From assembly GCA_029884455.1 (NCBI GenBank), contig JAOUHU010000009.1, positions 17,498 through 81,497 on the forward strand: a stretch of DNA of 64,000 nucleotides, written 5' to 3'. Shown here one piece after another: positions 55,139-64,000 of this stretch (position 1 is its first letter; each line of letters starts with the position of its first letter). A program made the translations under genes and the position numbers. This stretch comes from Gammaproteobacteria bacterium (lineage in GTDB: Bacteria; Pseudomonadota; Gammaproteobacteria; Steroidobacterales; Woeseiaceae). The notes under the pieces are model-generated. The model ran no database searches. It saw nothing but the letters and a program-made list of their open reading frames with translations, and was not told the origin of the DNA.

Positions 55139-59041
<3,903 letters not shown>

Positions 59042-59052
59042 ATCCTAAGTAG

Positions 59053-59370
59053 TTGCGAGCGGAATTGGGGATCCACTTGGGAACAAATCGCTTGTTATTG
59101 GTTGCACTTGCGTCGGTCGCACTGGCCTTGCAGGCGCAGCTGTGGTTTGCCGATGCCGGTTTCGCCAAGACCCGGAATTTACGCGCGGCGGTTGCCGAGC
59201 AACGCGCCCAGAACGAACAGTTATCACGTCGCAACCAGGCACTCGAAGCTGAAGTCATTAATCTCAAGCAGAGCTCCGAGGCAGCTGAAGAACGCGCGCG
59301 AACCGACCTCGGCATGATCGGCGCCAGGGAAACGTTTTTTCAGGTTGTGCCGTCACCCGGTACGTCCTGA
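59053..59370 (+). CDS. ftsB: Cell division protein FtsB
   Basis: Small single-TM protein with coiled coil (NLRAAVAEQRAQNEQLSRRNQALEAEVINLK) and ARTDLGMIGARETFFQVV, directly after eno. Confidence 0.88.
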   Translation: MRAELGIHLGTNRLLLVALASVALALQAQLWFADAGFAKTRNLRAAVAEQRAQNEQLSRRNQALEAEVINLKQSSEAAEERARTDLGMIGARETFFQVVPSPGTS

Positions 59371-59388
59371 GTCTCCCTGCCAGGCTGC

Positions 59389-61040
59389 CTAATTCAGGTG
59401 CCTCTTGAGGAACCGGTCAACGGACTCGTACGCACGCTGCCGGTTGTTATTGCTGTCGATGTCGTGGGTACCCATTTCCAGCTCGACAAACTGAAAATCC
59501 CGATTGCGCGTCGTTGCGCCCGATTTGCTGCGGCTGGCCTTGGCGCGAAAATCGGTGAACTGATCGAACGCCACTTCCGAATCGTACTCGCCGTGCACGA
59601 GCAGCGTTGGCACCGAGATGCGGTCGACATTGAATACGGCGGATGCACGATCGAGCCTGGTGCGCAGCAGTCAGCGCAACGAAGCCGCCATAGCCAATTC
59701 CGAGGATGCAAGCCTTCGTGGTGTCGACAGTGTCCTGTTCAGCCAGCCAGTCGATGCCGTCATACGTGTGCGTAAACGAGCAGTGCTGGTAAATCCCCGT
59801 CCAGTGAAGCCGGCAGTGTCAGGTAACCGGTAAGCGAGGTGCCATCAGCGGCGACGAAGGAAATAGTTTCGGTCTCGCGCAGCGCGACAGATTCGAGCTG
59901 CGGATATTCACTGAACCAGACGCCGGCCGCCTTGGATTCGAAATCGATCCACAAGTATTTTGGCGGCGAGTCGCTTCTGCTTGCCGTTACGATAATTCGC
60001 GACGCATCCCCGCTCATGCTCGCGATGGATACGTCAAAATCCGGCAGCACGGATTTCGCAGCTTGTTGCAAGGTCGTGTACTTTGATTCGAAAAAGACCT
60101 GCTCGAATTTATCGGCGATGTAGCTGGCACCAATAATGTGCTCGTGATCGTAGTCCCAGATCACGTTGGCCAGGTCGTAGGAATCAGTGCCAAAGATTCG
60201 CGGGCCGAACGTCTGGGCTTCGAAGTCGTAGTCCCACAAACTGACGAAGCCCGCTTCGCGGCCGCTCCAGACCACGGCCCTGCCGCCATTGACAAGCACG
60301 GGCAGAAACAATTCCCGACTCTCATAGGGCTCGAGTTTGTATTCAATCCAGTCCTTGGTAGCGAAGTCGCGATACTCATGTACGAATAGCTTGCGGCGAA
60401 ATTCCGGCTGAATGTTGAGCACGGGATTGGCGTTGGTATCCAGTATCCAGAGCTGTGCTTCGCCGGCACCCAGCAGTTGCTTTTCGTAGCGATTATCGTA
60501 AATGTTCAGCTTGTAGACATGCCGGCTACTGGTGCGTGACTCGAACAGTTCGATCAGTACTCGGTCCGATTCGGCCGGTAGCAAGGAGAGCAAGCGACCA
60601 TGCTCAGGCCGACGAGTATCGAATCTGGTCGGATCGCCAGGCGTGGTTACACCCCATATCAGGTTGGTTGGTTCGCTGCCGTCCCGGTTGACTGCGTGTA
60701 ACTGGTGTCGTTGCAGCCGCTTGCCCTGATAACGGTCGGTATAGTTCACAGTTACGATCAGTCGATCATCGTTAGCCCATTGGACCGCCGCGATCCGATC
60801 GTTCGAGTGATTGAGTCGCAGGATTGTCGTCAGTTCCTGGCTGCCGAATTCGGCTGTGACAACGGCGGGAAACTCACCCGTGTTCATTACCGCCGCGATA
60901 TAGCGGCCATCGGGCGACAGCTCGGGTTTCTCAATCGCGGGAATCTGGCCAAAACTTGCCGATGGCAGTTCGGCTGCCGCTGTGCCCAGGAAGACGAACA
61001 TTCCTAATGCGACCCCGGGTATGGCAATGAGCCTGTTCAT
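59389..61040 (-). pseudogene. Degraded S9 (prolyl oligopeptidase-type) peptidase
   Basis: N-terminal ORF 59760..61040 stops at ...LLVYAHV*; homology to the intact neighbour (61050..63044) continues in two other frames: YDGIDWLAEQDTVDTTKACILGIGYGGFVALTAAHQ, then LDRASAVFNVDRISVPTLLVHGEYDSEVAF...VDRFLKRHLN. Confidence 0.88.
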
Positions 61041-61049
61041 GGCAGTTCC

Positions 61050-62996
61050 CTAGTTAAGGTATTTACGCAGGAACTCATCCACCGCTTTAAATGTCGCGAG
61101 ACGATTCCTGTTGTCGTCGAGGTAATGGGTGCCAAATGGCAGCTCGATGTATTCAAGCGGGAATTGCGGTTCATTGGGGTTGCCAAAATAGTCATTGCCG
61201 GTCGCCTTTCTTACAAAGTCGACTGACTGCGTGATCCGCACCTGGGTATCGCGGTCGCCGTGGATTACCAGTACCGGCCGCTTGATCGCGCTGATGTTCT
61301 GAACGGGTGATGCGAGATTCAGCTCGCGTTTCTGCTCATTGTCCGAAATATCACCTATGACCTTGTAGGCGACAATCCGCCCGGTATCCCAGTAGGATTC
61401 CGCGAGTACCTGGGCGGGCAGGTCGCTGACTCCGGCCATACTGACGAAGCAGGCGAATGCCTCGGGTTGCTGGAAGGCCGCAGTAAGCGCCACGTAGCCG
61501 CCGTAGCTGGCGCCGACAACGCACATGCGCTCTGTGTCGACCAGGTCCTGCGCCCTGAGCCAGGCTATGGCGTCGTACACGTCGTCCTGCATTTTGCCGC
61601 CCCATTGCCGGTAGCCGGCCGCTTCAAACGCCGAGCCGAAACCGGTCGAGCCACGAAAGTTGACCTGCAGCACGGCGTAGCCGCGATTGGAAAACAGTTG
61701 CAGCATCGGATCGAAATACTGGTAATCGCGTGCATGTGGTCCGCCGTGCGGATAAACGACGAGTGGCGGCTTCTTGCCGTCCGCCCGTGACGGCATCGTC
61801 AGATAGCCGCGGATCTTGAGTCCGTCGCGGGCATTGAACTCGTACGGCGTCACCTTGGTTAGCGGCTGGCCCTCCAGTTCCGGAAACTGGCTGAACCAGG
61901 CGCCGGCTTTCTGTGCCGTGATGTCCAGCCAGAAGTACTTGGTTGGCGAATCATCGCGTTGCGCCGAGACGATCATGCGGCTCGAATCGCGGCTGCGACT
62001 CTCCACAAAGGTTTCAAATTGAGAAAAACTTTGTCTTACCAGCTGGTGAACATTTGCGTCAGACTCGGAAAAATAATGGCGTCTCTGGAAGTGATCGTAA
62101 TAGGCGGCACCGACAACCTGCCGTTTCTCCGGATCAAGAATCGCTGCGTTCACATCATATTCGTCCGCGGCAAACAGCAATTCGTCAAACTCGCCACGTT
62201 GAATGTCGTACCACCACAGCGCCTCACGCCCCAGTTCGTGGTCACTGATGACAATCGCCTTGCCGTTTGCAATCGACACCGGCCAGAATGTCTCATCTGC
62301 AACAACGATTTGTGTATGCAGCAATGCAAACTCGTCCTGGCCCCGCTCGCGATACCAGATAGAGCGCGTTTCCTTGTCGTAGCCGATGCCGAGCGAGACA
62401 TGGCCAGTGTTGTCCGCGACCCAGGTTGATACCCGGTACTTGTTAACAAACTGCTTGTCGAATCTGTTCCTGGTGATATCGACCTTGAAGACCGAGGTCG
62501 CCTTATCGGCAGGGTCGTACAATTCGAGCAGAATATGCTTCGGTTCGTCCGGCAGGAACGATATGACCCGATCCTTGTCAACGTAATAGGAATCCCGGGT
62601 CACACCTTTATCGGACCTGCGCGAAATCTGTTGCAGATCCGTGCCGTCCCGATTGACAACGTACAGCCGGTTCAGGCGAAAACGAATTGAGTTCAGCACA
62701 GATGAGAAACTGGCCGAGATCAGTATCTGCTCATCGTTAGCCCATTCGATCCACTCAATCCGGTCGTCCGCGTATTGCAACTGCAGGATTTTGCTGATGT
62801 CCGTACTGCCAAACGGTCCCACCGCCACGGCCGGCGTCTCTCCCGTGTTCAGTACGGCAGCGACGAACTGGCCGCTTGGCGATACCGAGGGCTGGTCGAT
62901 AACGGGCATGTGGCCAAAACTCTCGATCGGTAGCTCGGCTGTGAACGCTGGCGAGAAGAATGCAATAATGACGGCGACTAACAGGATTCTTTGCAT
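61050..62996 (-). CDS. S9 family peptidase (prolyl oligopeptidase fold), secreted
   Basis: Signal peptide MQRILLVAVIIAFFSPAFTAE; VVYPHGGPHARD, CVVGASYGGYVALTAAFQ nucleophile motif, VLVIHGDRDTQV, GTHYLDD. Confidence 0.9.
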   Translation of the reverse strand: MQRILLVAVIIAFFSPAFTAELPIESFGHMPVIDQPSVSPSGQFVAAVLNTGETPAVAVGPFGSTDISKILQLQYADDRIEWIEWANDEQILISASFSSVLNSIRFRLNRLYVVNRDGTDLQQISRRSDKGVTRDSYYVDKDRVISFLPDEPKHILLELYDPADKATSVFKVDITRNRFDKQFVNKYRVSTWVADNTGHVSLGIGYDKETRSIWYRERGQDEFALLHTQIVVADETFWPVSIANGKAIVISDHELGREALWWYDIQRGEFDELLFAADEYDVNAAILDPEKRQVVGAAYYDHFQRRHYFSESDANVHQLVRQSFSQFETFVESRSRDSSRMIVSAQRDDSPTKYFWLDITAQKAGAWFSQFPELEGQPLTKVTPYEFNARDGLKIRGYLTMPSRADGKKPPLVVYPHGGPHARDYQYFDPMLQLFSNRGYAVLQVNFRGSTGFGSAFEAAGYRQWGGKMQDDVYDAIAWLRAQDLVDTERMCVVGASYGGYVALTAAFQQPEAFACFVSMAGVSDLPAQVLAESYWDTGRIVAYKVIGDISDNEQKRELNLASPVQNISAIKRPVLVIHGDRDTQVRITQSVDFVRKATGNDYFGNPNEPQFPLEYIELPFGTHYLDDNRNRLATFKAVDEFLRKYLN

Positions 62997-63068
62997 TGTG
63001 AGTGCTCCTCCGTCGGTGTTGCCCGGTATTATGCCGCTATTCATCCAACAATTCTCCCGGAACTAACC

Positions 63069-64000
63069 GTGCCGGCTCTTCCAGAGTGGGCGACCGCTTA
63101 CGATCGACTCGGACTTGACGTCGAGATTCGACGCGAACCAGCCGATTTCCAGGTTATGGAGCATCTCTCATACGCGCTCGATGGCGCCGGTGAGCATGAG
63201 TATCTCTGGATAGAAAAGAGCGGTGCCAATACCAGCTGGGTCGCCGCAAGGCTGGCGAAATTCTGTGGCATCAATGCGCGCGATGTTGGTTATGCTGGCA
63301 TGAAAGACCGGCATGCGATTACTCGGCAGTGGTTCAGTGTTTGTCATCGCAAGGATGTACGCTGGGACGAATTCGCTGAAGTCGGTATTGCGATTCTCGC
63401 GCACCGACGTCATAGCCGAAAACTTCGTCGCGGCGCGCACACTGGAAACAATTTCAAAGTTGCGCTGCGTGCCGGGGACATTCAGATACACGAGGCGCGC
63501 CTCAGCGAGCGCCTCGCGCTGATCGCAGCGCAAGGCGTGCCCAACTATTTTGGCGAGCAACGCTTCGGCCGCGACGGCGGCAACCTGTCACTTGGCAAAA
63601 CGCTGTTCGCAGGTCGCCGCATGTCGCGTTCCAAACGCAGTATTGCGTTGTCCGCAGCGCGCTCCCTGATTTTCAACACGATCCTGGACGAGCGAGTCCG
63701 GGGCGGGACGTGGAATACGTTGCTGCCCGGGGAACTTGCAAATCTCGACGGCTCCGGCAGCGTTTTCGCCGTGGACTCTGTCGATGCGGCATTGGTTGCG
63801 CGCTGCACCGCCCTGGACATCCACCCGACCGCTTCGTTGTGGGGGGACGGATCGCCGCGCGGTGGCAGTGCGGTCGCTCTGCTCGAATCGTCGGCCGTGG
63901 TGCCGCACGCGGATATCGCAGCAGCACTGGTTGCCACGCGCATGCAGCCCGCGAGTCGTGCCTTGCGCCTGCGCGTATGCGATTTGCACTGGCACTTTGA
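63069..64000 (+). CDS. truD: tRNA pseudouridine(13) synthase TruD (GTG start; 3' end outside window)
   Basis: Own translation from 63069: VPALPEWATAYDRLGLDVEIRREPADFQVMEHLSYALDGAGEHEYLWIEKSGANTSWVAARLAKFCGINARDVGYAGMKDRHAITRQWFSV...GVPNYFGEQRFGRDGGNL. Confidence 0.92.
   Translation, partial: MPALPEWATAYDRLGLDVEIRREPADFQVMEHLSYALDGAGEHEYLWIEKSGANTSWVAARLAKFCGINARDVGYAGMKDRHAITRQWFSVCHRKDVRWDEFAEVGIAILAHRRHSRKLRRGAHTGNNFKVALRAGDIQIHEARLSERLALIAAQGVPNYFGEQRFGRDGGNLSLGKTLFAGRRMSRSKRSIALSAARSLIFNTILDERVRGGTWNTLLPGELANLDGSGSVFAVDSVDAALVARCTALDIHPTASLWGDGSPRGGSAVALLESSAVVPHADIAAALVATRMQPASRALRLRVCDLHWHF

Follow-up and report, generated by a model that had tools for sequence, protein, structure and literature searches.

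Very probable exchange of the MEP for the mevalonate pathway in Woeseiaceae, and the slot left by ispD and ispF between ftsB and truD

The classical bacterial mevalonate pathway, found in Firmicutes and in Coxiella, relies on HMG-CoA synthase (HMGS), class II HMG-CoA reductase (HMGR), mevalonate kinase (MVK), PMK, MDD and the IPP isomerase IDI. Its use by some Gammaproteobacteria, namely Coxiella and Legionella, is already known; according to a 2026 survey, Legionella lack PmvK and most of them also lack HmgS (PMC13001223). The Woeseiaceae/Woeseiales genome literature that we examined mentions neither mevalonate nor isoprenoids, and a limited search did not bring up any account of HMGR fused to MVK or of a pathway swap in Dyella. 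The gene order against which the present locus can be read is the gammaproteobacterial block ftsB-ispD-ispF-truD-surE-pcm-nlpD-rpoS: relatives belonging to the Woeseiaceae keep all the flanking genes and their order and are devoid of ispD and ispF, and the genome studied here carries, in addition, two S9 peptidase genes in the junction.

The window, i.e., the whole stretch of 64,000 nucleotides analysed, probably comes from a member of the Woeseiaceae, the named loci nearest to it by truD being largely of this family (48-61% truD identity). Its eno (enolase) gene (57764-59041, forward strand; PF00113/PF03952 and synteny in relatives), the upstream marker of a conserved pyrG-kdsA-eno-ftsB block, is followed by ftsB (59053-59370, forward strand, TTG start as listed; PF04977 DivIC, E 6.7e-20, and synteny), which marks the left side of the slot once occupied by ispDF. 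The right border is truD (tRNA pseudouridine synthase D; 63069-63998, forward strand, GTG start; PF01142, E 8.1e-47), which is incomplete, the end of the window being the end of contig C135, 81497 nt in length. The 3698 bases from the end of ftsB to the start of truD contain neither ispD nor ispF, and harbor, on the reverse strand, a degraded S9 peptidase paralog (59392-61040) and an intact S9 family (prolyl oligopeptidase-like) peptidase gene encoding 664 aa (61050-63044; PF00326, E 2.9e-41). A preliminary description of the locus had located this absence correctly, and the ftsB-ispD-ispF-truD order that it regarded as conserved was indeed seen in most outgroup loci and in two other families of the same taxonomic order; within that order it is kept at L138 (genome G134) and L042, and sister families retain it together with Dxs.

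The absence extends well beyond the slot. The IspF HMM had no match in the window's own assembly (3.33 Mb, 88.9% complete, 151 contigs), where the IspD HMM retrieved sub-threshold nucleotidyltransferases only and no true IspD, the best of them being GlmU and another MurU, both of which were rejected. IspF was found in none of the 107 genomes of the family, 45 of which are of high quality (at least 90% completeness and at most 5% contamination), the same search being positive in nine control genomes, and a class-wide sample revealed it in 178 of 229 genomes. Moreover, concatenated E. coli queries detected none of Dxs, Dxr, IspD, IspE, IspF, IspG and IspH in seven Woeseiaceae genomes (the own one, G000; G105, which consists of one contig; G011, G072, G020, G107 and G108), and the same queries detected MEP enzymes in the control genomes G114 and G109. 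Weak partial matches to the C-terminal part of Dxs (E 1e-12 to 1e-3), located in ORFs at least about 330 aa long, are read as ketoacid-dehydrogenase or transketolase relatives. Full-length Dxs, sought in 147 genomes sampled from the order, turned up in several families, but the 24 members of the window's own family were all devoid of it.

The junction was also compared in 76 other genomes of the family having ftsB and truD on one contig. The gap was measurable in 54 of them and, between the aligned parts, did not exceed 75 bp in 52; in the 22 further genomes ftsB and truD were matched as one continuous hit. Only G068 (277 bp) and G067 (1642 bp) depart from this, the latter being the closest relative found; its gap embeds an unrelated ORF of 538 aa on the ftsB strand (L136:4079-5695) that has no Pfam match. 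Given this ORF, the ftsB-truD junction seems open to lineage-specific inserts. All the named Woeseiaceae loci with both ftsB and truD have neither ispDF nor S9 genes between them, and no S9 gene was detected in the slot in any relative examined, G067 included.

A mevalonate cluster is present in the own genome on a contig different from that of the window (L012, corresponding to C123:42000-61999, 20 kb), in the order ispA, then MDD, PMK-like kinase, HMGR-MVK fusion and IDI-1, then HMG-CoA synthase; dinB and ispA run together, the genes from MDD to IDI-1 diverge from them, and the HMG-CoA synthase gene lies on the opposite strand. MDD (TIGR01240, 230.9 bits vs. a cut-off of 171.35; its PDB relatives are MDDs) and the type 1 IPP isomerase (TIGR02150, 147.9 bits vs. 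105.8) are both above their curated thresholds. The same is true for the two halves of a 688-aa ORF, in which HMG-CoA reductase covers residues 1-385 (TIGR00532, 352.1 bits vs. 259.95) and mevalonate kinase residues 405-661 (TIGR00549, 228 bits vs. 163.05), its PDB relatives being class II HMG-CoA reductases for residues 2-398 and mevalonate kinases for residues 395-678. This fusion (L012:14041-16107) places consecutive steps in one ORF throughout the genomes inspected. The names of two further proteins rest partly on context, since both fall below the NCBIfam cut-offs: the PMK-like GHMP kinase of the operon (best TIGR01220, 101 bits vs. 165.7) and HMG-CoA synthase (TIGR01835, 158.1 bits vs. 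360.35), the latter exceeding the gathering scores of PF01154 and PF08540.

MDD occurs in 101 of the 107 family genomes and in all the 45 of high quality, the six genomes without a match being incomplete assemblies; in the one-contig genome G105 the cluster is arranged as in the own genome, and MDD is listed in at least three other Dxs-less groups of the order (f180, f181 and f170-g221). The idea that the operon landed exactly in the dxs slot found no support: a sister locus with the MEP pathway (L104) reads xseB-ispA-dxs, and in the own genome the operon is divergent on the other side of ispA, with dinB following ispA. Compared with the classical pathway, the cluster appears to include the same enzyme families, with MDD over its curated cut-off; however, it differs in having HMGR and MVK in one ORF, a type 1 IDI, a location beside ispA, HMGS and PMK-like proteins below curated cut-offs, and in being fixed across a free-living marine family. 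Like Legionella, the Woeseiaceae would be Gammaproteobacteria assigned to mevalonate use; unlike what is reported for Legionella, the cluster described here has both a PMK-like kinase and a putative HMGS.

On the whole, we consider it very probable that the Woeseiaceae swapped the MEP for the mevalonate pathway, that ispDF were lost with the former, and that the S9 pair was inserted later. Accordingly worded as a sequence of events, the whole set of MEP genes (dxs, dxr, ispD, ispE, ispF, ispG and ispH) would have been lost in a distant ancestor, leaving the family to make its isoprenoid precursors from acetyl-CoA via mevalonate, a flux predicted from gene content; the loss of ispDF would have made ftsB and truD direct neighbours and, later, in the lineage of the window, two S9 genes would have entered the junction on the opposite strand, one of them decaying. 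The mevalonate operon appears to be the functional replacement for ispDF. Beyond the absences, presences, synteny and distribution observed, we infer both that the operon was acquired horizontally and in which order this acquisition and the loss of the MEP genes occurred.

Other explanations have to be weighed against this one. The preliminary description assumed that ispDF were either relocated or replaced by the peptidases. As to relocation, the incompleteness and the fragmentation of the own assembly might indeed let one think that the two genes lie elsewhere, or that gaps or errors in the assembly of the MAG account for their absence, the organism running on the MEP pathway. However, the genome-wide and family-wide searches yielded no IspF or true IspD anywhere, either in the own genome or in its relatives, which rules relocation out as such, and the fact that the high-quality assemblies also lack IspF, and that Dxr, IspG and IspH are absent even from the one-contig genome, makes this whole explanation extremely improbable. 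The same holds for the displacement of ispDF by the S9 genes in a single event, which we find scarcely credible: the peptidase genes do occupy the slot today, but the comparison of the locus in relatives revealed that the loss of ispDF is shared across the family and that S9 genes are absent from the slot, nearly all the 76 other genomes having ftsB beside truD without space for an S9 gene (only two gaps exceed about 75 bp) and the gap of the closest relative holding a different gene.

It might also be argued that the cluster is devoted to a secondary product, as in some Streptomyces whose mevalonate operon is employed to make prenylated phenazines (PMC7591250), and that isoprenoid precursors are obtained by salvage or through an unknown route. 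Nevertheless, the presence of the cluster in every high-quality genome of the family, its linkage to ispA and the complete absence of the MEP pathway render this idea very improbable, even if slightly less so than the previous two, and the pathway swap remains the reading that we prefer.

The swap would concern an essential pathway at the root of the Woeseiaceae, which are among the commonest bacteria of marine sediments, and from it one would expect these bacteria not to respond to the MEP inhibitor fosmidomycin, and their isoprenoids to come at another cost in carbon and redox equivalents.

The S9 genes themselves are not equivalent, even though both had initially been taken for peptidase genes. 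The protein encoded at 61050-63044 has the triad Ser513/Asp599/His640 (assigned by motif), an apparent N-terminal signal sequence, and acylaminoacyl/dipeptidyl peptidases as PDB relatives. The 59392-61040 copy, delineated through frame translation and tblastn with its intact neighbour, keeps the propeller half (33% identity over the propeller); in the hydrolase half two stretches equivalent to residues about 434-490 and 526-571 are gone, each of these internal losses shifting the frame (near 59766 and 59660), and Gly stands in place of the catalytic Ser, the GxSYGG motif being GIGYGG. This copy is a pseudogene. Among the genomes sampled, the pair is specific to the lineage of the window and younger than the loss of ispDF, since ftsB adjoins truD across the family without room for an S9 gene.

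A further question concerns DXP, which is the product of Dxs and the substrate of both PdxJ (vitamin B6) and ThiG (thiamin). Each of the seven Woeseiaceae genomes searched contains PdxA and PdxJ, and there are PdxH-like matches as well; ThiG and ThiC were not found in the same seven genomes, pointing to a lack of de novo thiamin synthesis. The PdxJ sequences of eleven Dxs-less genomes of five families (the own one at L142:5318-6031, contig C125; other loci L143-L158) are identical to the E. coli enzyme at all the 14 residues checked, whose positions we take to be those of the active site of that enzyme, and six Dxs-bearing relatives have the same residues there. A loss of PdxJ function was discarded, the active-site residues being unchanged, and so was PdxS as a substitute source of PLP, as it exceeded the cut-off in none of the 147 genomes of the order. 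The persistence of PdxJ without its substrate seems less likely, since PdxJ is conserved. The unchanged PdxJ, the retention of PdxA and of PdxH-like proteins, the lack of PdxS and the absence of Dxs from several families of the order together lead us to give about an even chance to the idea that the Dxs-less clade still produces pyridoxal phosphate with PdxJ and makes the DXP for it by an unrecognised Dxs-independent route, which may be a DXP synthase of a new type, an enzyme recruited from another function or a salvage shunt.

Unknown alternatives to Dxs have been inferred for bacteria otherwise using the MEP pathway, the methylthioadenosine shunt being one candidate (PMC10663253). The two cases are alike in that a DXP-using enzyme remains in the absence of Dxs; however, those bacteria require DXP for isoprenoids via an otherwise complete MEP pathway, whereas in the Woeseiaceae it would be needed only for PdxJ. 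A survey of holes in the pyridoxal phosphate pathway assigns, in the sections consulted, the majority of the absent genes to its early steps, and a missing Dxs is not addressed there (PMC9997740). DXP being a precursor of both isoprenoids and vitamin B6, the loss of Dxs with the retention of PdxJ would expose a missing enzyme or a hidden route, which a comparison of families with and without Dxs within one order can help to track down.

A parallel to the Woeseiaceae is offered by Dyella flava, D. lipolytica, D. choica and D. psychrodurans and by a Lysobacterales MAG (L141, L128-L132; L034, L035, L038, L044 and L074), which also lack ispDF in the slot. They possess MDD and the HMGR-MVK fusion (deduced at L140/L141 from the presence of the two domains in a single frame of one stop-free ORF) in the same MDD-PMK-(HMGR-MVK)-IDI operon order; they keep Dxs and are devoid of IspF, IspG and IspH. 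D. ginsengisoli keeps the MEP pathway. The transfer of the operon between the Woeseiaceae and these Dyella/Lysobacterales groups is likely, and the Dyella swap, with the same fused operon, would provide a natural replicate for how an essential pathway gets exchanged. Dxr-like matches persist without IspF, IspG and IspH in D. flava, D. lipolytica and D. psychrodurans (G110, G111 and G113, respectively), with an identity of 46% in G111 and of 34% in G110 and G113, and G111 also keeps IspE (49%).
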